Below the pieces are notes generated by a model, which worked only from the letters and a program-made list of their open reading frames with translations, ran no database searches and was not told the origin of the DNA. Below, piece by piece: positions 6,807-55,652 of a stretch of DNA of 56,957 nucleotides. Position 1 is the first letter of the stretch. Each line of letters opens with the position of its first letter. The position numbers and the translations under genes are program-made. Source of the DNA: Candidatus Hydrogenedentota bacterium (lineage in GTDB: Bacteria; Hydrogenedentota; Hydrogenedentia; Hydrogenedentales; CAITNO01); NCBI GenBank assembly GCA_012730105.1, contig JAAYBJ010000036.1, positions 1 through 56,957 of the forward strand, written 5' to 3'.

Positions 6807-8183
6807 CTACGCCCCGCCCGGCACTTCAATCTGGGGGCGTTCGCGCCAGCGACCGCGCGTAAAATCCGGCACATCGGTCACGGCGGCGCGCCCGGCGACA
6901 CTGCGTTCACTGAGCGGTCCAATGGAACTCCACGCCACAGCGTCATAGACGTCCTGGTCGGTGGGCAGGCCGCCGCGCAGGCTCTCGATCAGGCGCATAT
7001 CTTCCAGGAAGTCCATGCCGCCATGACCATACTGGGTCACCATGGCTCCCTGGTCACGCCACAGTTTGGCATCATATTTTTCATAGTAAGCCTCCATGGA
7101 CTCCCATTCATGGGCGGGACTGACACCATCTATATAAACGCGGTCGGGGTATCCCTGCACGATACCCCGCGTGCCCTGCACCAAGTTGATCCGGCTGTAG
7201 GGGCGCGGATTATTGCAGTTGTACATCACGGTTATGGTCCGGCCCAGGTGCGTCTGAATCAATACGGTATTCACGTCGCCCGACTTAAAGACAAGGTCAC
7301 GGCGCGGATCGCCCTCCGGTAGTTTCTCCCGGGCGTACTCGGCAAGCCCCAGCCCGGGGCTGCTCATGGAAACCAAGTGCGAGAACTGATCTCCCCGGTT
7401 GATGTTCATGCACTGCGCCACGGGTCCAAGACCGTGGGTAGGATACAGGTTGCCATTCCGGGTCAGCGGGTTCTCCTGAAACCACTCCCGGCCCGGGGCC
7501 ATCTGCAGGTACAGATCCCGGACGTCGTGCAGGTAACCACATTCGGCGTGGAGCAGTTCCCCGAGCACACCCTTGCGCACCATGTTCAGCACCGCCATCT
7601 CGGTGCGCCCGTAACAGCAGTTTTCCATCATGACACAGTGCTTTCCCCGGGCCTCGGCCGTTTCCACCAGTTGCCAGCATCCCTCAAGAGTGATGGCTGC
7701 GGGCACCTCCGTGGCCGCGTGTTTTCCGTTCTCCATGGCCGCGACACAGACCGGCACATGCCATTTGTGGGGTGTGGCGGTGTACACCAGATCCAATTCT
7801 TGCTCAGCGCACATCCGTTCAAAATCCCGTTCTCCCTTTGAATACCCTTCCGGTCTTTGTTGACCGGCCGCCACAACCATATCCTGGATACGGGTCACTC
7901 TTTCTTCCAAGATATCACAGACCGCCTTAATTTCCACCCCCTCGAGTTTTAACAGATTCCCGATATGGTTGGTGCCCATGCTTCCCACGCCCACGAAACC
8001 GACGCGCACCCGTTCCATAGGCGGAGCGGTGAAAAAGGCAGGCGTCTTTCCCTGTGCGGAGACGGTGTGTGCCGCCTTTCCCAACAGGGACCATGCGGCG
8101 CCGGCGGCCACGCCAATCCTCACAAAATCACGGCGGTTCGGGGCCTTTGCATCCATGCTGTTATCATGACGGAAACTATCCAT
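6807..8183 (-). CDS. Tat-exported Gfo/Idh/MocA oxidoreductase, GH109-type glycosidase
   Basis: 458 residues. The ATG at 8183 is preceded by GAGAGGTGCCC; the GTG at 8189 is less well placed. A Tat signal (NRRDFVRIGVAAGAAWSLL) leads into a Rossmann domain (VRVGFVGVGSMGTNH) and the conserved YTATPHKWHVPVCVAAMENG. EVPAAITLEGCWQLVETAE and MENCCYGRTEMAVLNMVRKG follow, a combination typical of GH109 rather than generic Gfo/Idh proteins. GH109 enzymes (founding activity alpha-N-acetylgalactosaminidase) use tightly bound NAD to oxidise C3 of the sugar, eliminate the aglycone and add water. Export with bound NAD is expected. The sugar cleaved is inferred from family only. It neighbours the DUF1080 and aldo/keto reductase genes and converges on the latter. 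Confidence 0.88.
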   Translation of the reverse strand: MDSFRHDNSMDAKAPNRRDFVRIGVAAGAAWSLLGKAAHTVSAQGKTPAFFTAPPMERVRVGFVGVGSMGTNHIGNLLKLEGVEIKAVCDILEERVTRIQDMVVAAGQQRPEGYSKGERDFERMCAEQELDLVYTATPHKWHVPVCVAAMENGKHAATEVPAAITLEGCWQLVETAEARGKHCVMMENCCYGRTEMAVLNMVRKGVLGELLHAECGYLHDVRDLYLQMAPGREWFQENPLTRNGNLYPTHGLGPVAQCMNINRGDQFSHLVSMSSPGLGLAEYAREKLPEGDPRRDLVFKSGDVNTVLIQTHLGRTITVMYNCNNPRPYSRINLVQGTRGIVQGYPDRVYIDGVSPAHEWESMEAYYEKYDAKLWRDQGAMVTQYGHGGMDFLEDMRLIESLRGGLPTDQDVYDAVAWSSIGPLSERSVAGRAAVTDVPDFTRGRWRERPQIEVPGGA

Positions 8184-8381
8184 GGGCACCTCTCTTTCTG
8201 GTTGTTTGCGCCCGCCGCGACTTCCGGCGGAATGTATGGCACATGCATGGCGGATATTATGCGATAAACAAAGGGATGTTGTATATCCATCGAATCCTAT
8301 ACCGAGCAGGGCAGCCGTGATTCGAAGCGCTATCCTCTACCCGGGTGGCATTCCTGCTCTCCCCAGGCAGGCATAAAGCGA

Positions 8382-27881: not shown

Positions 27882-30701
27882 CTATTCCAGTTTCAAGCCC
27901 GTTTCATATACTCGGCGAATCTCTTCCCCGGTCATCGCCCGGGCATAGAGGGCAAATTCCGCAAGCCGCCCAGTGTAATACTCGTTGCCTCTGTAGTTTG
28001 GATTCGCGCCCAGAGCGATGTTCGCGGCAGTCGTCTGATCGAGACTCGCCGGGGCCTTGCCCTGTTGCCGAAGCCCGCCGTTCAGGTACAGCGCCAGGTC
28101 GGCGCCGTTCTTCACGACGGCAATATGCGTCCACGCGCCGAAGGGTATGGGTTCGCCGGGCAGGGATGCGTTGTCGCCGCCTTCAATGCCGACATGCAAC
28201 GCGTTGTCCTTAAGAAAAACCCGAAGCGGATCGTCCATGGAACGTGCCCAGGCGCTGAACAGCTGACGAATATGCCCGGCCGGCTCACCCTCCGGGCACG
28301 CCCATAAAAGCAGCGTGCATTCCCGGTGCGGAAATTCAGGGATGGTGTAGCGCAGCATGCCTTCTCCTTCAAAGCGTACGGCACCGTCCGCCGTTTCGTT
28401 TCGACCCGGCACGGCGGTGATTCCCGCCTCCTTTTCCAGGACGCCATACACGGGCGTCCCATTTCCCCGCAGCCAAGCACCGACCACCAGATCATCCTCC
28501 CGGTACTGGACCAGTGCAGGATTAGTCAGGAAGGGATTTTCAAGCGTGGCATCCAAAACAAAGGAACGCGGACCGTCCACCGCTTCCACCCGGCCATGGG
28601 CATTCACCGCCTGCACGGTCCAGTAATAGGTTCGTCCCGGTTCCAGTTCGGCCTCAAGGACGGCCCTCGACTTGTCAAGGTCCGTAAGCGTATATACAGG
28701 ATCTGCCATGGAGGCTGTTTCGCTCACCACCAACGTGTAGGTTTTGTTTTCCGCATGTGCGGGACCCTGCCATTGAAATTGATTGGGGCCTGCGGGCAGG
28801 CGCGCTCCATCTTCGGGGGAAACAAGGCGGAACGCGGGCGGCGGCAGCTTCGCGGCGGGCAGCCACGAGGCATAGTGGGTGCCGTATGCGCCCGCGTTGG
28901 CGAAATCGGACAACACCAGTTTCCCGCCCTCCGCCGTGGTGAATTCAAAAGATACAAGGGGCGGAAACGCTTCCTCTTCCAAGGGCACAGGCATATACGA
29001 AAGATTCGTATAATCCAGCGGGGGCAGAGCATCGGTGTCCATCATATTGCGTTTCTGGTCAAAAGCCAGCAGCAGGGGCCCGTAATACAGGGACATCCTG
29101 TCCGCCCGCGCTTCATCACCCACCCAGGCCCGCAGGGCCATGTCCAGCTGCAGGTCAATGACGTCACCATCCTGCCAGTCCCGTTCCAGCGCGAGGTAGG
29201 CGCCCGGCACGACGCCATCTACACCTTCGCCGTTTGCCTTGACAACGGTATGCGCCGACCAGGTGGGAATGCGTAAGGAGATGGTAAAGGTGGCCGGGAC
29301 ATCCAGACCAAGCACGATGCGCACCTGACTATCGCGGGGATAGGCGGTTTCCTGACGCAACCGTATCTGCCGCCCTTCCGCAAGGGGCAGGTCCGCTTCC
29401 ATGGGCCCGTAAAAGTTCACGACCAGGCCGTCCGCGCCCTCCCGCATGACAGCCCACTCGGAGAGCATGCCCAGGCCGCGCGGCGCGTTTACCGAACAAC
29501 AGTTCAGTTCCGGGGTGCCGTGCCGTGCCTGAAACACGATGGAATGGGCCGAGGCTTCCCGGACCCCGTTACTCGGTGTGTTGTAGGTGCTCCACCGCCC
29601 GCTGGGGTGCTGGTAGCCGAGTGTGGCGTTCCAGAAACCTTGCTCCAGACAATCCGCCACAGCCGGTTCACCTGTAAGAGCCAGCATATCCACGCTCATG
29701 TAAGTCCACGCGACATGGCAACAGGTTTCCACCGCACCGATCCGGAAGGGACTTCCTACGGCCTGCTCATCGGTGGAGAAAGCGCCGCTGTTGTGCAGGT
29801 CATAATCGTGAATGCCGTGCCACAGGTTTTCGAAGGCGGTCTTGTAGGAAGCATCCCCCGTGATACGGTACAGTTCCACCAGCCCCTGAATGCCGTGCAG
29901 GCTCTCCCAGCGCGGTTTCGGGGTTTTGTAGAAGGGTACGCCGGACATTCCCTGCCGGTAATAATCACCGGTTTCGGGAGACTCCCAGTCCTCCACAATG
30001 CGGTTCATCATACGCAGATACCGCTCGTCTCCCGTGTGACGATACAAGCGCCCGAAGCCATGGATGATGGAGAGATTCATTTCGGTAGAACCCGCGTCTT
30101 TCGGGCGGCGATCCCCCTCCAGATATGCTTTGCAGATCAAATCAGCAGCACGCAGGACACAGTCCAGGGCGTCCTGGTCGCCGGTGCGTTCATGCCACAT
30201 CATCAAGGCCAGCATGACATGGTAATGGCCCCAGAGATCCCAGTTGCCCATCAGGCGTTCTTCTTTCGCGAAGGGTCCCAGGTAACCGTCCTCCGCCTGG
30301 GTGCGTATCAGTTCCGCAATGACATGGGCCACTTTGGATTCCAGGCGCGGGTCCTTGCTCATGCGCAGCGCCTGAACAGCCGAGATCAGATACTTACCGA
30401 CAAACTCTCCCGCCCAGGGCACCAGCGCGGGCTTGGGTGAACGGTCCCGCACCCGGAACATTTCCAACATGCCCGGGTTGGCGTCAGGCGCGGACAACAG
30501 CCACTGGTCAATATTGTTTTGAATGCGTTTCCCGACACTGTCGGAAAAAGTGTATCGGCAGGATTCGATCGGGGAAAAGCGCAAGGCACCCCGCTCACCT
30601 GGCGGACCCTGCGCTGTTGCCTCCATGGCAAACGACAAGGCCAATGCAACGGCCACAAAAATCATTGGAAGAAAACGCCCGAACCACGATGGTGTTGCCA
30701 T
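27882..30701 (-). CDS. Secreted GH127-like (DUF1680) glycosidase with C-terminal LamG domain
   Basis: 939 residues with an N-terminal signal (MIFVAVALALSFAMEATAQ). Residues about 40-560 are the GH127 alpha/alpha barrel: NWDLWGHYHVMLALMMWHE, RWESLHGIQGLVELYRITG, then AVETCCHVAW and ELNCCSVNAPRGLG. GH127 beta-L-arabinofuranosidases bind zinc through Glu-x-Cys and a Cys-Cys pair, and both signatures (ETC and NCC) are present. A fibronectin-like segment (about 640-730, FRLVSPEDGARLPAGPNQF) follows. A LamG/concanavalin domain ends the protein (about 750-939, ECTLLLWACPEG, WTHIAVVKNGADLALYLNG). The C-terminal domain is probably carbohydrate-binding. It heads a three-gene operon with 46- and 18-base gaps. 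The exact sugar is unknown. Confidence 0.88.
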   Translation of the reverse strand: MATPSWFGRFLPMIFVAVALALSFAMEATAQGPPGERGALRFSPIESCRYTFSDSVGKRIQNNIDQWLLSAPDANPGMLEMFRVRDRSPKPALVPWAGEFVGKYLISAVQALRMSKDPRLESKVAHVIAELIRTQAEDGYLGPFAKEERLMGNWDLWGHYHVMLALMMWHERTGDQDALDCVLRAADLICKAYLEGDRRPKDAGSTEMNLSIIHGFGRLYRHTGDERYLRMMNRIVEDWESPETGDYYRQGMSGVPFYKTPKPRWESLHGIQGLVELYRITGDASYKTAFENLWHGIHDYDLHNSGAFSTDEQAVGSPFRIGAVETCCHVAWTYMSVDMLALTGEPAVADCLEQGFWNATLGYQHPSGRWSTYNTPSNGVREASAHSIVFQARHGTPELNCCSVNAPRGLGMLSEWAVMREGADGLVVNFYGPMEADLPLAEGRQIRLRQETAYPRDSQVRIVLGLDVPATFTISLRIPTWSAHTVVKANGEGVDGVVPGAYLALERDWQDGDVIDLQLDMALRAWVGDEARADRMSLYYGPLLLAFDQKRNMMDTDALPPLDYTNLSYMPVPLEEEAFPPLVSFEFTTAEGGKLVLSDFANAGAYGTHYASWLPAAKLPPPAFRLVSPEDGARLPAGPNQFQWQGPAHAENKTYTLVVSETASMADPVYTLTDLDKSRAVLEAELEPGRTYYWTVQAVNAHGRVEAVDGPRSFVLDATLENPFLTNPALVQYREDDLVVGAWLRGNGTPVYGVLEKEAGITAVPGRNETADGAVRFEGEGMLRYTIPEFPHRECTLLLWACPEGEPAGHIRQLFSAWARSMDDPLRVFLKDNALHVGIEGGDNASLPGEPIPFGAWTHIAVVKNGADLALYLNGGLRQQGKAPASLDQTTAANIALGANPNYRGNEYYTGRLAEFALYARAMTGEEIRRVYETGLKLE

Positions 30702-45016: not shown

Positions 45017-46297
45017 ATGTCAAGTGAATTTAATCGCCGCCAGTTTCTCGCCGGCACCCTTGTGGGTGGTGCGGTGTTGACTTCGGGGCTTCGGGCCGCC
45101 GCCCAGGCGGATGCGGAAACGGTTACCGTGGGCGTGGTGGGTATGAACCGGGGCAAGGCCCTTGCCCTGGATTTCTTGAAGGCGCCGGGATGCCGCATCA
45201 AGTATGTGTGCGATCTGGATAATAACCGCAGGGAGGAGGGCAAAGCGGCCATTGGCAAGGCAAGCGGAACTACCCCCGAAGCCGTTGCTGATTTCCGCCA
45301 CATTCTCGATGATCCGGAAGTCGACGCGGTCGCTTTCGCCCTGCCCGTACACTGGCATGCCCCGGCCGCCATTTTGGCCTGCAAGGCGGGCAAGCATGTC
45401 TATGTGGAAAAACCCTGCTGCCACAATCCCCGCGAAGGGGAACTGCTGGTGGAGGCGGCCCGGAAATACAATCGCGCCGTGCAGATGGGCGCCCAGCGTC
45501 GTTCTTCCGCGGTCATCAACGAGGGCATGACAAAACTGTTGGGCGGTGCCATTGGCCGTGCGTATTATGCCCGGGGCTGGTATGCGGCCCAGCGGGGCGG
45601 CATGGGAAGGGGCGAAGTCATGGATCCTCCCGAACAGCTCGATTACGATCTGTGGCAGGGGCCCGCGCCGCGCAGGCCGTACAAGAGCAATGTCATTCAC
45701 TACAACTGGCACTGGCTCTGGCATTACGGCACCGGGGAAGCGGGGAACAACGGCACCCACATGTTCGACCTTGGCCGCTGGGGGCTTGGCGTGGACTATC
45801 CGCTTCGCGTGACCTCCGCCGGCGGGCGTTACCGCTATGACGACGACCAGGAGACGCCCGACACCCACATGATCACCTATGATTTTGAGGGGGGGAAAAC
45901 GCTCACCTGGGAAGGTCTCAGCTGCAACCAACCCGGTCCGGAGGGCATGTTCGTCGGTATTACCTTCTACGGGGAGAACGGCAGCATGATCTTCGGGCAC
46001 GATAGTTATGTCCTCCGCGACGGGAGCGGCAAAGTGGTCGAGGAGGCCAAGGGCGATGTGGGTGGCGTTGACCACGTGGTGAATCTTCTGAACGCCATAC
46101 GGACAAACACGCCCGAATCCCTGAATTGTCAGATTGAAACCGGTTACAAGAGCACCCTGCTCGCCCACTTGGGTAATATCGCCCATCGCACAGGGCGCGT
46201 TTTACGCTGCGATGATGCAGGACACATCCTTGATGACACCGAAGCCCAAGCCCTCTGGCAACGGGAATATGAGCCCGGCTGGGAGCCGACGGTATAG
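45017..46297 (+). CDS. Tat-exported Gfo/Idh/MocA-family oxidoreductase
   Basis: 426 residues; ATG at 45017 after AGGAGAATACAGGTC. The signal NRRQFLAGTLVGGAVLTSG has the twin arginines. The Rossmann part reads VTVGVVGMNRGKALALDF, a shortened glycine loop. DPEVDAVAFALPVHWHAPAAILA, GKHVYVEKPCCHNPREGELLVEA with the catalytic-region EKP, and WHWLWHYGTGEAGNNGTHMFDLGRW (conserved His region) follow. It is predicted to oxidise a sugar ring with tightly bound nicotinamide cofactor in the periplasm. Substrate unknown. It diverges from the toroid-like gene. Confidence 0.88.
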   Translation: MSSEFNRRQFLAGTLVGGAVLTSGLRAAAQADAETVTVGVVGMNRGKALALDFLKAPGCRIKYVCDLDNNRREEGKAAIGKASGTTPEAVADFRHILDDPEVDAVAFALPVHWHAPAAILACKAGKHVYVEKPCCHNPREGELLVEAARKYNRAVQMGAQRRSSAVINEGMTKLLGGAIGRAYYARGWYAAQRGGMGRGEVMDPPEQLDYDLWQGPAPRRPYKSNVIHYNWHWLWHYGTGEAGNNGTHMFDLGRWGLGVDYPLRVTSAGGRYRYDDDQETPDTHMITYDFEGGKTLTWEGLSCNQPGPEGMFVGITFYGENGSMIFGHDSYVLRDGSGKVVEEAKGDVGGVDHVVNLLNAIRTNTPESLNCQIETGYKSTLLAHLGNIAHRTGRVLRCDDAGHILDDTEAQALWQREYEPGWEPTV

Positions 46298-46761
46298 TTC
46301 ACTTGCGGAATCTAAAATTCCAACGCAAGCATCGACCGTGTTTGATAGATTATCGGATCACAGTTGTGGGCAAACCACCGCGTGGCGTCGGGGTTATTTG
46401 TACGGAGAAAATGTTATTCATCGTCATTATGAGGCACCAAGCAATCCGGTTTGCAACAAGTCCGTGGCAACAGATAAGAAAACGTTTTTATCTTATTCAT
46501 TTCATGGGATATATGATCCATCGTTTTCTCATGGTATGGACAGCCTATGGGCGTGCAGGCTCTTTCCCAAATTCCATTTGGGAACGTAATCTCTCTTGAA
46601 ATTCAATTTCCCTTTTCGCGACAGTCCGCCTGGTATGTTTCGTCGCTTAACCAGGGTTACGAGGTAGAACTTCGCGGGCAAGTGCGTTCCCAATAGAATT
46701 TGGGAAAGAGAGAATAATTGCGAAAACGGACCATGCTACCGTGGTCGAAAAAGGATACATA
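46298..46761. other. 464-base gap containing a REP-like inverted repeat element
   Basis: Between the Gfo/Idh stop and the ceramidase-like lipoprotein. The first 260 bases carry no visible gene, then the element at 46560-46710, then a short leader with AAAAAGGA before the next ATG. Confidence 0.5.
46560..46710. repeat. REP-like (BIME/REPIN-type) inverted repeat element
   Basis: Two short palindromic units face each other about 100 bases apart. Unit 1 (46560-46586) has CCCAAAT / ATTTGGG around a TCC loop, then GGGAACG. Unit 2 (46685-46710) is its reverse complement, differing only by one C/T change and one missing T. Flanking CTCTTTCCC is also shared. The layout resembles RAYT-mobilised REP doublets. 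No transposase is present in the window. Confidence 0.7.
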
Positions 46762-48399
46762 ATGCACCTGAATAGCGCCTTCATCAAACGGCACAAGGGG
46801 TTAACGTTAGTAGTACTGCTACTGCTGGCGACGGCGGGATGTATTGGCTACCGCATGAAGGGCCCGTACCGGTCCTACTACCTCGATTTCATCAAAACCG
46901 GCGATGGATCGGCGGCGAAAACGATTCAGGTCGGAGTCGCCCTGCGTGACATCACCCCGGACATGGACAAGTACGACACCTTCGTGGATGTCGATAACGA
47001 CAACGCCTACAAACCTGCATCCGGATTCTTCAGTTTTTTTTCGTCCTTGAGGGGCCCCGACAGTTATGTCGACCGGAACGGGAACGGCAAGTTCGACGCG
47101 GCGTGGATGACCGGATTTACCACCGACCGTCCCGCCAAGGGCGTACATGATCCCATCCAGACGCGTGCCATTGTTTTAAGCAACAATGGCCTCCGCATTG
47201 CCATGGTTACGCTGGACGCGATTGGGATGTTCAACGACAAGGTCATCGACCTCCGCAAGCGCATCAACCCCGCTCTGAATATAGATCATGTGATTGTATC
47301 CTGCGTCCACAACCATGAGACGCCGGACACGATGGGCATCTACTGCGGCCCGATTCCCACACCGTGGGCCTTTGATAATGAGCATATGGAAGGAGTGCTG
47401 AACGCCTGCAAAGAGGCCGTCGAAGAGGCGGCCGAAAATCTGCAACCTGCGGAGATGTATTGCGTGACCCGTGAGCTGGCGCCCGAGGGCTTTGTCCGGG
47501 ATTCGCGGTTACCCACGGTTATTGACACACAGTTGCACTGTGTCCGCTTCGTCAAGCCGGGAACGGACGAGACCATAGCGACGCTGCTCAGCTGGGGCAA
47601 TCATCCCGAAACCTTGGGCGGCAAGAATCCCTACATCACGGCGGACTTCTGCGGGTACTGGCGCGACGGCGTGGAAAAGGGCGTGCCGGAACCCAACGGT
47701 GTGCAGGGGTTGGGCGGCATGTGCCTCTATTTTCAGGGAATGGTCGGCGGCCTGATGACCCAGCTGGAAATGGAAGTGCCCCACAGGGATGGTGTCCGTA
47801 CGTTCACGGAGGATTCCTTCGAGAAGGCAGAGGCCCTCGGCCAGAACCTCGCCATTGAAACGATCAATGCATTGCACAGTGACCGGGTTTGGAAGAACGA
47901 ACGGCCCGCCCTGGCGGTGGGCGCCAAGAATATCTATGGACCGGTGCGCGGTATCTTCGGCGCTGCGGTCATGACGGGCCTGATCCATCCGGGAATCTTC
48001 TGGCCTTTCAATGCGCGGTCCGAGATCAATGTCGCGCGTATCGGCGAGGTGGAAATCCTCACCGTCCCGGGTGAACTCTACCCGGAAATCGGCGACGGCG
48101 GCATCGAGAACCCGCCGGGCGCGGACTTTTATCCCCTCGACCCGGTGGAAGTGCCGCCCCTGCGCAAGGAGATCATGCAGGGGAAAATGCGGATGGTCTT
48201 TGGCTTGGCCAACGACCAGATCGGCTACATCATTCCCAAAAGCCAGTGGGACGCCGAACCGCCTTATGCCTACACGCCCGAGGGACAGTATGGGGAGCAG
48301 AATTCCCTGACACCTGAACTCGGCCCGTTAATTCATCGGGAATGTAAGGCGCTGCTTGATCGGCTCCACGCGGCGCTGAACCGAAAGCAAGCGTTGTAG
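46762..48399 (+). CDS. Neutral ceramidase-like lipoprotein
   Basis: 545 residues from the ATG at 46762 (AAAAAGGA upstream). A lipoprotein signal ends in LLLATAGC, so it is membrane-anchored. The catalytic-type domain has VGVALRDITPDMDKYDTF, a Ca-binding-like DVDNDNAY and DRNGNGKFDAAW, IDHVIVSCVHNHETPDTMG and ATLLSWGNHPETLGG with candidate zinc His. FCGYWRDGVEKG, then VEILTVPGELYPEIGDGG and DQIGYIIPKSQW follow. This resembles neutral/alkaline ceramidase N-terminal domains and is a paralogue-like partner of the secreted protein at 22365. Substrate is unknown; a lipid or acyl-amide is plausible. It has no close co-directional neighbour. Confidence 0.75.
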   Translation: MHLNSAFIKRHKGLTLVVLLLLATAGCIGYRMKGPYRSYYLDFIKTGDGSAAKTIQVGVALRDITPDMDKYDTFVDVDNDNAYKPASGFFSFFSSLRGPDSYVDRNGNGKFDAAWMTGFTTDRPAKGVHDPIQTRAIVLSNNGLRIAMVTLDAIGMFNDKVIDLRKRINPALNIDHVIVSCVHNHETPDTMGIYCGPIPTPWAFDNEHMEGVLNACKEAVEEAAENLQPAEMYCVTRELAPEGFVRDSRLPTVIDTQLHCVRFVKPGTDETIATLLSWGNHPETLGGKNPYITADFCGYWRDGVEKGVPEPNGVQGLGGMCLYFQGMVGGLMTQLEMEVPHRDGVRTFTEDSFEKAEALGQNLAIETINALHSDRVWKNERPALAVGAKNIYGPVRGIFGAAVMTGLIHPGIFWPFNARSEINVARIGEVEILTVPGELYPEIGDGGIENPPGADFYPLDPVEVPPLRKEIMQGKMRMVFGLANDQIGYIIPKSQWDAEPPYAYTPEGQYGEQNSLTPELGPLIHRECKALLDRLHAALNRKQAL

Positions 48400-51146: not shown

Positions 51147-52034
51147 ATGTCCGATTCCTCCATAGGCGTATGGCTGAACGCGGCGCGTCCAAAAACGCTT
51201 CCTGCCGCGATATCGCCTGTTATTTTGGGTATCGCCCTGGCTTGGGATGCCGGCGCCTTGCATTTCCCGGCGGCGTTGTGCGCGCTGATGGGGGCTATCC
51301 TGATCCAGATTGCGGCGAATTACGCCAACGACTATTATGATTACCTCAAAGGTGCGGATGCCGGGGAACGGCTGGGCCCCGTGCGCGCCACCCAGGCGGG
51401 GCTGGTCAAGCCCGCGCAGATGAAACGGGCTATGGTTACCGTACTGGGGCTCGCCTCATTGTCCGGGCTCTACCTGGTCTACCGGGGCGGATGGCCCATT
51501 CTCGTGGTTGGCCTGCTGTCCATGCTCTTTGCCGTGCTGTATACTGCCGGCCCCTATCCGCTGGGCTACATCGGTGCTGCGGACCTGTTCGTCCTGATCT
51601 TCTTCGGGCCCGTGGCCGTCGCGGGAACCTATTATGTGCAGGCTCTGCACTTGCCCTGGACGCCCGTTTGGATCGGACTGGGTCCCGGCCTGCTATCCGT
51701 GGCCATTCTTACCGTGAATAACCTGCGCGATGTGAATCAAGACCGTCTGTCAGGTAAAAAAACGCTCGCCGTGCGTTTCGGTCCCTGGTACGCCCGGTTG
51801 CAATATAGCTTGTGCATAATCATTGCGGTGATTATCCTTCCCGTGGCTGCAGCCGTCCACAGTGGCCATATACTTGTCTGTGTCGCGATACTTGCCGCGG
51901 CTCCCGTCGGCTATTGCGTCCGGGTGGTGATAACAGAAACCAACGGAGTAACCTTGAACGACTGTCTCGCCCGCACAGGCAAAGTGCTGCTGCTTTACAG
52001 CCTTTTGTTCTCTCTGGGCTGGGTATTGTCCTGA
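51147..52034 (+). CDS. menA: 1,4-dihydroxy-2-naphthoate polyprenyltransferase
   Basis: 295 residues; ATG after GAAAGGTTCCC. A UbiA-family membrane enzyme of about nine spans. The first aspartate-rich motif is NYANDYYDYLKGAD and the second is LRDVNQDRLSGKKTLAVRFG, both intact for magnesium-prenyl diphosphate binding. The N-terminal WLNAARPKTLPAAISPVILGIA is characteristic of MenA. It makes demethylmenaquinone from DHNA, implying menaquinone-based respiration. No other men genes are nearby. Confidence 0.93.
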   Translation: MSDSSIGVWLNAARPKTLPAAISPVILGIALAWDAGALHFPAALCALMGAILIQIAANYANDYYDYLKGADAGERLGPVRATQAGLVKPAQMKRAMVTVLGLASLSGLYLVYRGGWPILVVGLLSMLFAVLYTAGPYPLGYIGAADLFVLIFFGPVAVAGTYYVQALHLPWTPVWIGLGPGLLSVAILTVNNLRDVNQDRLSGKKTLAVRFGPWYARLQYSLCIIIAVIILPVAAAVHSGHILVCVAILAAAPVGYCVRVVITETNGVTLNDCLARTGKVLLLYSLLFSLGWVLS

Positions 52035-52264
52035 AGCGGATAGAAACCAGATCTCCTTGTGCGCGCCCCGGACAATCCGCCACGCCACAAAAAATCTATG
52101 AGATACATGAGAATTGGCTTCCTTCCCGTCTGTTATTGTCACCTCCTTTATAAAATACCTATGGCGCGGACGAAAATGTTTTCACAACCCGCTGAAAATT
52201 CATATAATGGCATTCCCTGTTACCAATTGCCTCATGTCCGAGCCTTGCGGAAAGGAATGCCGGA

Positions 52265-53395
52265 ATGGTCCGTTGGCTGCCTGTAAGTGTTCTCTGTATT
52301 CTTGTTGTTCTTTCTCCTGCTATTGCCCGGGCGGACATGCCCTGCCCTGACGCCCATGTGTTTTATTACGGGTGGTACGGCAATCCGGAAACGGACGGCC
52401 AGTGGCGGCACTGGGATCACCCGACCTTGCCCCGCCAGGGCGCCGGCACACCTCATACGCCGCCGGAGGACATCGGCGCGAATTATTATCCAGGGGATGG
52501 CTTATGCAGCAGCCTGAACCGGGATGATGTGACGCGCCAGATGAAACAGATCAAGGATGCGGGCATCGGGGTTCTGGCCGCTTCCTGGTGGGGCAAAGAC
52601 GATATTTCCGACCAGTCCCTGGCGCTGCTTTTTGAAATCGCGCCGGAATACAGCATTCAGATTTGTTTTCATATAGAGCCCTTTCCCGGACGGAATGCGG
52701 AGACAACGCGCGCCGCGCTGGTCTATCTGCTTGACTGCTACGGCGATCATCCCGCCCTGTACCGTTGTTCCCAATCCGGCAACCGCCCCCTGATTTACCT
52801 CTATGATTCTTATCTGACCCCGGCGGAAGACTGGGCCGGCCTGTTTCAGTCAGGCGACAAGCAAAGCATCCGCGGCACGAAATATGACGTGGCCGCCATT
52901 GCCTTGTGGGTAAAGAAAAATGAACAGGGGTTTATGTTGCGGGGCGGCTTCGACGGTTTCTACACCTACTTTGCCACGGACAGGTTTACCTACGGATCCA
53001 CACCGTCGAACTGGCCTCAACTGGCCGCCTGGGCAAAAGAGAAAGGACTTATTTTTATTCCCAGTGTCGGACCGGGGTATATAGACACCCGCATCCGCCC
53101 GTGGAACAACGCCAATACGCGCGCCCGTGAAGACGGCGCTTATTACGACCGCATGTTTGAAAGCGCTCTGAAGTCCGGGGCGCCGCTGGTTTCCATCACT
53201 TCCTTCAACGAGTGGCACGAGGGTACCCAAATTGAACCTGCCGTGCCGAAAACCATAGAAGGCTATCAGTACGAGGATTACGGCGTCCGCTCGCCGATCT
53301 ATTATTTGGAACGCACCCTGTACTGGATTCAACGCTGGAAAGAAAAGGAGAACAACACATGCGCCTGGTTATTTTGCCGGCCATCCTTGTCCTAG
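52265..53395 (+). CDS. Secreted GH99-like endo-alpha-mannosidase/mannanase
   Basis: 376 residues; ATG after AAAGGAATGCCGGA. A signal peptide (LPVSVLCILVVLSPAIARA) precedes a TIM-barrel domain of the GH99 type: VFYYGWYGNPETDGQWRHW, IKDAGIGVLAASWWGKDD and FHIEPFPGR, which holds the pair of Glu/neighbouring residues used by the family. ITSFNEWHEGTQIEPA closes the barrel. GH99 enzymes cleave alpha-1,2-linked mannose (and related) structures by an epoxide mechanism. Its 3' end overlaps the next gene by 37 bases, so the two are translationally linked. The overlap suggests that its last ~12 residues (CAWLFCRPSLS) could be read from a shared region. First gene of the GH99 - DUF6807 - Gfo/Idh operon. 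Confidence 0.85.
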   Translation: MVRWLPVSVLCILVVLSPAIARADMPCPDAHVFYYGWYGNPETDGQWRHWDHPTLPRQGAGTPHTPPEDIGANYYPGDGLCSSLNRDDVTRQMKQIKDAGIGVLAASWWGKDDISDQSLALLFEIAPEYSIQICFHIEPFPGRNAETTRAALVYLLDCYGDHPALYRCSQSGNRPLIYLYDSYLTPAEDWAGLFQSGDKQSIRGTKYDVAAIALWVKKNEQGFMLRGGFDGFYTYFATDRFTYGSTPSNWPQLAAWAKEKGLIFIPSVGPGYIDTRIRPWNNANTRAREDGAYYDRMFESALKSGAPLVSITSFNEWHEGTQIEPAVPKTIEGYQYEDYGVRSPIYYLERTLYWIQRWKEKENNTCAWLFCRPSLS

Positions 53396-54318
53396 GATGC
53401 GCGGTCGCGGCGGCCGCACCGGGAGAATCCCCCTTGAAAATCAGCTTGAGCGACACGTTGCTTGAACTTCAGGAAGGAAACAGCCCGGTGTTGCAGTATA
53501 AGTACCGTAGCGTCCCCTTCAAGCCCTACGCCATGTCCTGGTTCACGCCGAAGGGGGTGAATGTTTTGCGCGATGCCCCCGAAGACCACAAGCACCACCA
53601 CAGTCTGATGTACGCCATCATGCTGGGGGATATCAATTTTTGGGAAGAAATCCCGGAAGCGGGGCGGCAGTTACACCGCACTTTTGCGAACGTCTCCGTT
53701 GACCCGAAACGGGCCGGCTTCACGGAAACACTCGTGTGGCAGGGTCCCAAGCGCGGGAAAATCATGCTGTTTGAGCAACGACGGCTGACGCACCACCTTA
53801 CAGATGGCGGTTCGGCACGGCTGCTGACGTGGCAGTCGGAACTCAAATGCCCGAAAGGAGAAGAGCGCGTCACCTTGGTGGGTAAAATCTATCACGGCCT
53901 GGGTATGCGTTTTCCTGTGTTCATGGACAAGGTGGGGTCGTTCCAATTCGCGCAGGATGAAACCGGCGCCTTTGACGACGGCCCCCATCACCTCGCCCAG
54001 GCGTCCTGGTGCGCCTACACCGTTGCCGACGGGGAGCATCCCGTGACGGTTGCCATGTTCAGCGCGAAGGAGAACCCCCGCCCCACGCTGTGGTTCACCA
54101 TGCTGGAGCCTTTCTCCTACCTGGCGGGCACCTTTGATCTCTCAAGGAACCCCATAACGCTTGAGGCCGGCAAGACCCTCACCGCAAAATACGGGCTGGC
54201 GGCGTGGGACGGCATCGTTGACAACGAGACGGTTCAGGCCCTTTACGAGCAATGGCAGAAGATTTTGGAAAACAAGGACAATAAACATCCGCGAAAAGCA
54301 AAGGAGCATGCGTCATGA
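53359..54318 (+). CDS. Secreted DUF6807 (PmoA-like) protein
   Basis: 319 residues; ATG after AAAGGAGAACAACAC, located inside the end of the GH99 gene. A signal peptide (LVILPAILVLGCAVAAAA) precedes the DUF6807 beta-sandwich: GVNVLRDAPEDHKHHHSLMYAIMLGDINFW, HRTFANVSVDPK and FPVFMDKVGSFQFAQDETGAF. FSAKENPRPTLWF and FSYLAGTFDLSRNPITLEAGKTL follow. The His-rich HKHHH is typical of the family. The family name 'PmoA' refers to a distant methane monooxygenase annotation and does not imply methane oxidation; members occur with Gfo/Idh oxidoreductases in carbohydrate loci. Its stop overlaps the next ATG (ATGA). Confidence 0.85.
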   Translation: MRLVILPAILVLGCAVAAAAPGESPLKISLSDTLLELQEGNSPVLQYKYRSVPFKPYAMSWFTPKGVNVLRDAPEDHKHHHSLMYAIMLGDINFWEEIPEAGRQLHRTFANVSVDPKRAGFTETLVWQGPKRGKIMLFEQRRLTHHLTDGGSARLLTWQSELKCPKGEERVTLVGKIYHGLGMRFPVFMDKVGSFQFAQDETGAFDDGPHHLAQASWCAYTVADGEHPVTVAMFSAKENPRPTLWFTMLEPFSYLAGTFDLSRNPITLEAGKTLTAKYGLAAWDGIVDNETVQALYEQWQKILENKDNKHPRKAKEHAS

Positions 54319-55592
54319 ATGAAAAGTATCACGAAGTAAACCGCCGCGCCTTCCTGGGACACACGGTGCTGGCGGGCGCGGTGGCGGCAGGTCTGGCGGC
54401 CATGCCGAAGCGGCATGTATTAGCCGCAAATGACAAATTGGGCGTTGCCGTCATCGGCTGCGGCGGACGCGGCAACAGTCACCTGGAAACATTAAAACAC
54501 ATCGCGGAGGCCGACAAGAGCATCGAGATTGTCGCCGTGTGCGATGTGTACCGGCCCCGGTTAAACAAGGCGGCTGAACGCTACGGCGTCCCGAAGGCTT
54601 ATATGGATCACCGCGAGCTGCTGGCGGACCCGGCGGTGGACCTGGTAACCATCGCCACGCCGGATCATATCCACGGCTACCAGGCGCTTGACGCCATCGC
54701 GGCCGGCAAGGACGTATACTGTGAGAAACCGGTCACCCACTGGCGCCAGTTCGAACTCACCAAAAAACTGGCCAAGGAAGTGGCCGCCTCCGGACGGGTC
54801 TTCCAGTGCGGCACCCAGGGCATGAGCGACTCCGCCTGGAAACAAATCGGGCAGCTGGTGCGCGAAGGCAAAATCGGGCAGCCGATTCATGCCGAATGCG
54901 GTTATTTTCGCGTAGGCGACTGGGGCGAGGCGGGCATGCCGATCGACGACCCGAACGCGCAACCCGGGCCAGACCTCAACTGGGAGGCCTTCCTGGGCGA
55001 CTCTCCGAAACGCGATTTCGACGTGAGCCGTTTCTTCCGCTGGCGCATGTACGAGGACTACGCGGGCGGGCCCTGCACCGACCTGTTCCCCCACATTCTG
55101 ACACCGGTCATGCACATGATGAACGCGAAGCTGCCGTCGGTCGCCGTGGCCACGGGCGGCATGTACCGCTATACGGAACGGGAGGTGCCCGACACCTTCA
55201 ACATGCTCGTGGACTTCCCGGAAAAATTCACCATTGCCGTGCTCGGCACCCAGGGCAATGACTACCAGGCCACCGAAGAACGCGGTTCCGGCGGGCGCAT
55301 TCCCGTTATCCGGGGTTGGGACGGCACGCTGACGGTCAAGAATAATGAAATCGTCTTCATTCCGAACCGGGGCTCGGATGCGAAGGCGGAAAACATCCCC
55401 ATCGGGCGTCAGGAAAACCTGTTACACCACTTCCAGGAACTCATCGACTGCAGCAAGGCGGGGGATCCGAACACCAGCAGCCCGATGGAACTTGCCTACC
55501 ATGTGCAGACCGCGCTGATCATGTCGTTCCTTTCCCTGCGCGGAGGGAAGGCGGTGCGCTTCGACCATGCGAATGAAGCGCTGATCGTGTAA
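54315..55592 (+). CDS. Tat-exported Gfo/Idh/MocA-family oxidoreductase (operon with GH99)
   Basis: 425 residues. The start overlaps the DUF6807 stop by four bases and has AAAGGAGCATGCGTC upstream. The Tat signal NRRAFLGHTVLAGAVAAGL leads to LGVAVIGCGGRGNSHLETL, DLVTIATPDHIHGYQALDAIAAG, KDVYCEKPVTHWRQFELTKKLA and RFFRWRMYEDYAGGPCTDLFPHILTPV. These are the NAD-binding, EKP and His/Asp regions of the family. Together with the upstream GH99 and DUF6807 proteins it forms a three-gene exported unit, with a clear terminator downstream. The substrate is probably a sugar released or presented by GH99; this is inference. Confidence 0.9.
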   Translation: MNEKYHEVNRRAFLGHTVLAGAVAAGLAAMPKRHVLAANDKLGVAVIGCGGRGNSHLETLKHIAEADKSIEIVAVCDVYRPRLNKAAERYGVPKAYMDHRELLADPAVDLVTIATPDHIHGYQALDAIAAGKDVYCEKPVTHWRQFELTKKLAKEVAASGRVFQCGTQGMSDSAWKQIGQLVREGKIGQPIHAECGYFRVGDWGEAGMPIDDPNAQPGPDLNWEAFLGDSPKRDFDVSRFFRWRMYEDYAGGPCTDLFPHILTPVMHMMNAKLPSVAVATGGMYRYTEREVPDTFNMLVDFPEKFTIAVLGTQGNDYQATEERGSGGRIPVIRGWDGTLTVKNNEIVFIPNRGSDAKAENIPIGRQENLLHHFQELIDCSKAGDPNTSSPMELAYHVQTALIMSFLSLRGGKAVRFDHANEALIV

Positions 55593-55616: not shown

Positions 55617-55652
55617 ACGCCTGTGAGGTTTCGAAAGCCTCACAGGCGTTTT
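55617..55652 (+). terminator. Rho-independent terminator of the GH99 operon
   Basis: ACGCCTGTGAGG at 55617 pairs perfectly with CCTCACAGGCGT at 55638 over a 9-base loop, ending in TTTT. Confidence 0.9.

Follow-up and report, generated by a model that had tools for sequence, protein, structure and literature searches.

A three-gene operon in Hydrogenedentota

The window, that is, the whole stretch of DNA analysed here (56,957 nucleotides), is the entire contig C273 of a metagenome-assembled genome of Hydrogenedentota, which we coded G000. We studied three consecutive genes on its forward strand, at 52265-55592, encoding a GH99 endo-alpha-mannosidase/mannanase (52265-53395, 376 amino acids), a DUF6807 protein (53359-54318, 319 amino acids) and a Gfo/Idh/MocA oxidoreductase, hereafter Gfo (54315-55592, 425 amino acids). 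The GH99 stop codon (TAG, 53393-53395) lies beyond the DUF6807 start codon (ATG, 53359), giving an overlap of 37 nucleotides (53359-53395), and DUF6807 in turn overlaps Gfo by the four bases ATGA. About 57 nucleotides 5′ of the GH99 start, on the same strand, sits a promoter-like site (TTCACA-16-TATAAT, 52181-52208) recognised by consensus match only, at 11 of 12 positions. Downstream of Gfo, RNA folding revealed a terminator-like hairpin of 15 base pairs followed by TTTT (55617-55649, forward strand), with an energy of -25.8 kcal/mol and a z-score of -4.65; an equally stable structure arose in 1 of 200 shuffles. A consensus terminator scan did not list this hairpin, which has just four T after it. 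The 37-nucleotide overlap was found at equal length in the congener G008, whose GH99 is identical at 286 of 376 residues, and the rates of nonsynonymous (0.146) and synonymous (0.95) substitution between the two GH99 genes indicate purifying selection. Both GH99 and DUF6807 have Sec-like N-termini, the latter a predicted signal peptide, and Gfo carries a twin-arginine translocation (Tat) motif, RRAFL. Thus, the two overlaps reported in a preliminary description of this locus were recovered, with a terminator-like hairpin where it placed a terminator, and the layout supports its proposal that the three genes are made together, as one transcription unit of exported-looking proteins.

The family names given in that description also held, since all three proteins scored above the profile cut-offs: GH99 with PF16317 (439.5 bits, cut-off 33, model positions 6-340 of 341), DUF6807 with PF14100 (136.1 bits, cut-off 27) and Gfo with the Rossmann domain PF01408 (83.2 bits, cut-off 24). 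GH99 is homologous over its full length to the solved bacterial GH99 enzymes 4acy and 4ad1 (phmmer E about 1e-104 to 1e-106), which are Bacteroides mannan enzymes, and shares with them a WW pair at residues 108-109 that may correspond to human position 189. Its NEWHEG stretch (residues 315-320, with E316 and E319) contains the EWHE motif, also shared with 4acy and 4ad1 and present in all 14 aligned GH99 sequences. The two glutamates of EWHE have been named as catalytic for human MANEA and bacterial enzymes, and tryptophan at the human-189 position denotes the mannanase type (PMC11025385). Unlike 4acy and 4ad1, the window GH99 stands with DUF6807 and Gfo. In Gfo, residues E137, K138 and P139 (EKP), D256 and H260 are conserved in 34 orthologs, all of which have the Tat motif RRx[FL][LMVI]; we assume that EKP, D256 and H260 are catalytic. 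In DUF6807, seven residues (G66, H80, W95, R184, W217, N239 and P242) are invariant across 15 proteins from the phylum and from the plasmid-record groups described below, and H77 nearly so; the DHxxH motif (H77/H80) and R184 are kept across phyla. A comparison of DUF6807 with solved structures gave short chance matches only, and no homologue was found in the viral contigs searched.

DUF6807 and Gfo as a conserved pair

Among the 68 Hydrogenedentota genomes of our sample, all contain DUF6807, often in several copies. The subfamily to which the window protein belongs was found in 44 of them (43 above 100 bits, plus a contig-edge fragment in G009 at 88.7 bits), with 37-54% identity among 27 aligned members and a PF14100 match in 28 of 28. 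An orthologous Gfo follows downstream on the same strand at 34 of these 44 loci, which amounts to 34 of the 37 that are testable: seven end at a contig edge before any Gfo, and only three (G003, G042 and G061) truly lack it. Counted over the 68 genomes, and ignoring shared ancestry, 41 have the subfamily as well as Gfo, 21 have neither, and 3 and 3 have one without the other. DUF6807 diverges faster than its partner, with about 40% identity vs 54-90% for Gfo. By contrast, among the 30 top-scoring PF14100 loci, a same-strand Gfo lies within 1.5 kb in only 2.

A third gene recurs at these loci. A PF01261 xylose-isomerase-like TIM barrel lies on the same strand at 15 of the 44, in 13 cases with Gfo in the same stretch. 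It sits between DUF6807 and Gfo in G005 and G006, and in G056 the TIM barrel, Gfo and DUF6807 are consecutive. The best-conserved form of this protein shows 69-84% identity over 40 of the 68 genomes besides the query's own, the window genome among them, and is thus much more strongly conserved than DUF6807; among solved structures it has no close relative (best 33.7 bits).

The pairing extends beyond the phylum. In a plasmid collection, DUF6807 occurred in six records, and a Gfo adjoins it in five of them (Halomontanus, Granulicella, Hymenobacter, Paenarthrobacter and Nonomuraea), with none beside it in the sixth, Gemmatirosa. DUF6807-Gfo pairs therefore recur in an archaeon, Acidobacteriota, Bacteroidota and Actinomycetota. 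In the archaeon, Halomontanus, a sugar isomerase lies 2.7 kb from the pair. On plasmid pTC2 of Paenarthrobacter aurescens TC1 (L204, L207), the order is LacI, sugar ATP-binding cassette importer, Gfo, DUF6807 and cupin, a locus which provides a culturable system for the pair. Judged from this distribution of sequences, DUF6807 together with Gfo is an ancient unit.

The window encodes two other Gfo/Idh/MocA proteins. One, at 6807-8189 on the reverse strand, matches PF21252, the GH109 C-terminal domain, with 191.8 bits and is a candidate glycosidase dependent on nicotinamide adenine dinucleotide (NAD+). The other, at 45017-46297 on the forward strand, about 6 kb upstream of the operon, has a weak TAT-signal match and adjoins a neutral-ceramidase-like gene (46741-48399). 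A GH127-like protein with a LamG domain is encoded at 27882-30701 on the reverse strand.

GH99 and the fusions of DUF6807

Full-length GH99 was found in 12 of the 68 genomes. It adjoins DUF6807 in G000 and G008, which belong to one genus, and is fused to DUF6807 in G053, a member of another family of the phylum. G009 fits the same arrangement, although split between contigs: its GH99 is cut by a contig end, and a separate contig holds a cut DUF6807, a UPF0175 gene and Gfo. The arrangement is therefore not unique to the window genome; such uniqueness would have spoken against the preliminary description. In G009 the UPF0175 gene (L177, 342-605; 64.7 bits) lies between DUF6807 and Gfo and breaks the ATGA coupling. 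Just 5′ of the operon in G000, G008 and G009 lies menA, for 1,4-dihydroxy-2-naphthoate polyprenyltransferase (51147-52034 in the window, forward strand). In G007, the fourth congener, menA and the DUF6807-Gfo pair occupy the same neighbourhood and no GH99 is present there. This indicates either that DUF6807-Gfo is older than GH99 at the locus or that GH99 was lost in G007. Elsewhere in the phylum, GH99 has unrelated neighbours. In the GH99 tree, G000 and G008 pair and the deeper forks are mostly weak. Outside the phylum, no DUF6807 was found anywhere in the genomes G070 and G071; GH99 occurs in 2 of 20 genomes of the phylum of G070. Among 395 Bacteroidota genomes, full-length GH99 was found in 3 and beside DUF6807 in none. 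As for other alpha-mannan enzymes, the single GH92 of the window genome is on contig C334 and none is on the window contig, GH76, GH38 and SusCD not having been searched. The best reading of these data is that GH99 is a local addition to DUF6807-Gfo and sets the local substrate.

The fusion in G053 is a protein of 686 amino acids, with GH99 at 49-383 (448 bits) and DUF6807 at 400-667 (139 bits). Its DUF6807 part scored 148 bits with a broad profile and 37 bits with the window-type profile, and thus belongs to another subfamily, which points to a second, independent meeting of GH99 and DUF6807. We had entertained the idea that the GH99 link was a single event in one genus, and dropped it when profiles broader than the window DUF6807 alone revealed this fusion.

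Other fusions involve ThuA. Among 13 DUF6807 genes fetched from Hydrogenedentota, chosen mostly for long open frames, five encode a ThuA-DUF6807 fusion (G034, G043, G049, G060 and G067). Gfo adjoins four of the fusions and also the G050 gene, and the fusions of G034 and G049 come with the conserved TIM barrel as well. The product in G043 (L238, 1403-5530) is 1375 amino acids long and combines ThuA, HEAT repeats, an F5/8 type C-like domain and DUF6807. In Nonomuraea, a secreted-looking protein of 863 amino acids combines ThuA, 3-keto-disaccharide hydrolase (PF06439), CBM6 and GH99, and in a Streptomyces record ThuA shares one open frame with PF06439, without GH99, indicating that the ThuA-PF06439 combination also occurs without it. 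Taken together, the ThuA and GH99 fusions place DUF6807 beside ThuA and GH99 just as PF06439 is placed. The comparison with relatives points to a role for DUF6807 in breaking sugars by way of oxidation. DUF6807 is probably a member of the keto-sugar toolkit, filling the slot of the 3-keto-disaccharide hydrolase.

A possible keto-sugar route

Several known systems resemble parts of the locus. In the levoglucosan pathway (LgdA-LgdB1-LgdB2-LgdC), likewise built of Gfo oxidoreductases and PF01261 TIM barrels, these enzymes carry out oxidation, (beta-)elimination, hydration and reduction; in contrast with our locus, the sections of these papers that we draw on name no DUF6807 and no GH99, and the TIM barrel is absent from the window locus (PMC7676230, PMC10066097). 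The periplasmic disaccharide pathway of Bacteroides likewise combines an exported glycoside 3-dehydrogenase, BT2158 (PMC11300592), with a separate keto-disaccharide hydrolase, the 3-ketotrehalose hydrolase BT2157 (PMC9007349), but that hydrolase is of PF06439 and not of DUF6807. ThuA-ThuB assimilation of trehalose and maltose has been linked to 3-keto derivatives (PMC4765114), and relatives of the window locus have the ThuA-DUF6807 fusion beside Gfo, whereas the window locus itself has GH99 instead of ThuA. Last, the metagenomic clone Lac161 carries a PF14100 gene that may share an operon with two beta-galactosidases recovered by functional selection; a word search of the available text of that report returned no Gfo or oxidoreductase, and PF14100 is read there as methane oxygenase (PMC5342196). 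A 2023 paper also counts PF14100 as methane oxygenase, in the part we cite (PMC10291797), and some annotations still name DUF6807 a "PmoA family protein". The preliminary description had proposed looking for ketosugar products. This hint has gained strength, chiefly from fusions outside the window, with DUF6807 co-occurring with Gfo, PF01261 and ThuA; the test is well aimed because all three have been linked in print, as far as the cited portions go, to keto-glycoside pathways.

We therefore lean, if only slightly, towards an envelope module that would break glycans down oxidatively, by way of keto-sugars, and that has acquired a hydrolase at its front; we infer every reaction in it, the C3 position and the substrate. 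Exported GH99, by its family, would cut alpha-1,2-mannan-type chains to short oligosaccharides outside the cytoplasm. Gfo, taking its cofactor NAD(P) out along with it through the Tat system, might then oxidise a sugar hydroxyl of the oligosaccharide, most likely at C3. DUF6807 would act on the resulting keto-glycoside, most likely cleaving the glycosidic linkage, whether by elimination or by hydrolysis, in analogy with known keto-glycoside pathways, in which PF06439 or PF01261 enzymes break that bond. The released keto-sugar may be processed by the conserved PF01261 TIM barrel, encoded elsewhere in the window genome.

A number of observations weigh against this scheme. Gfo matches the glycoside 3-dehydrogenase model NF058561 (BT_2158) with 132.2 bits, over residues 9-304 only, far below the equivalog cut-off of 750, and thus C3 oxidation is not established. 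A profile comparison (hhalign) of DUF6807 with PF06439 gave probabilities of 0.9% and 0.6%, that is, no detectable homology, and we ruled out DUF6807 as a PF06439 homologue. The AlphaFold2 model of DUF6807, from an alignment of the window sequence with a 107-amino-acid fragment from L070, reached a mean predicted local distance difference test score of 30 and gave no usable fold. In the open-access (PMC) literature, as far as the retrieved text goes, we found no function or reaction for any DUF6807/PF14100 protein, and DUF6807 is cited merely as a number in the excerpt of one paper (PMC10971088). The TIM barrel, the commonest partner at other loci, is encoded in the window genome on another contig (G000:C328:3157-3975), not at the operon, and in most genomes it has no signal peptide; G004-G006 are an exception, with a Tat-like RREFM start on the copy at the operon. 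It may thus act in another compartment or pathway, and a single compartment for all steps would not be assured. As for GH99, the G053 fusion has no adjoining Gfo, and no DUF6807 was found near GH99 in 9 of the 12 genomes with full-length GH99, within the available flanks (short for G011). Nor did GH99 and the window-type DUF6807 subfamily co-occur beyond chance over the 68 genomes (10 of 12 with GH99 vs 34 of 56 without, p 0.19). These last two results, together with the absence of a nearby GH99 from most DUF6807-Gfo pairs, speak against alpha-mannan as a general substrate of DUF6807, which the preliminary description had drawn from the GH99 link. What stood of that proposal is the link itself, as it recurs in G008 and G053. 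The hypothesis is thus partly supported: the unit is real and meaningful, and the general substrate claim goes too far.

The same lack of association would be expected if GH99 were an incidental neighbour that came under the same promoter within a single genus, DUF6807 and Gfo acting on something else, such as a trehalose-like disaccharide or an inositol glycoside. The congener G007, where the DUF6807-Gfo pair follows menA and GH99 is missing from the interval, and the unrelated neighbours of GH99 elsewhere in the phylum also fit. We nevertheless regard this as rather unlikely, given that the 37-nucleotide overlap was kept in G008 despite a GH99 identity of only 286/376, that GH99 was fused independently to another DUF6807 subfamily, and that Nonomuraea fuses GH99 to the 3-keto-disaccharide hydrolase. 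A doubtful but possible alternative is that DUF6807 is an accessory of Gfo (sugar-binding, mutarotase-like or cofactor-keeping), cleavage being left to Gfo itself or to PF01261 enzymes. It would account for the failure to match DUF6807 to any known enzyme by fold or by sequence and for the faster divergence of DUF6807 relative to Gfo, as often seen in non-catalytic partners. Against it, sequences as far apart as those of Hydrogenedentota and archaea (17-26% identity) still share DHxxH, R184, W95, W217 and N239, which is the pattern of an active site, and DUF6807 often occurs without Gfo, as the 30 top-scoring PF14100 loci illustrate.

That Gfo is itself a GH109-like, NAD+-dependent glycosidase, cleaving alone and leaving the product to DUF6807, seems to us quite improbable. 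GH109-like proteins share Tat export and the Gfo fold, and the separate Gfo at 6807-8189 in the window has the GH109 C-terminal domain. Yet the operon Gfo gave no match to PF21252 at E 0.01, in contrast to the score of that other protein.

Returning to the keto-sugar route, it can be taken a step further, at the level of a tentative proposal. DUF6807 might represent a new class of enzyme, a keto-glycoside lyase or hydrolase whose active site comprises the DHxxH motif and Arg184. Evolutionarily unrelated to the 3-keto-disaccharide hydrolase, it would take that enzyme's place next to Gfo, ThuA and GH99 among bacteria and archaea. GH99-DUF6807 fusions and operons would then be single-pass machines in which hydrolysis of alpha-mannan is followed by oxidative finishing of the fragments. 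If DUF6807 does act in keto-sugar metabolism, this would correct its labelling as methane oxygenase or PmoA and give the family a testable function. It would also tie a classical endo-glycosidase to an oxidative route, through shared operons as well as fused genes.

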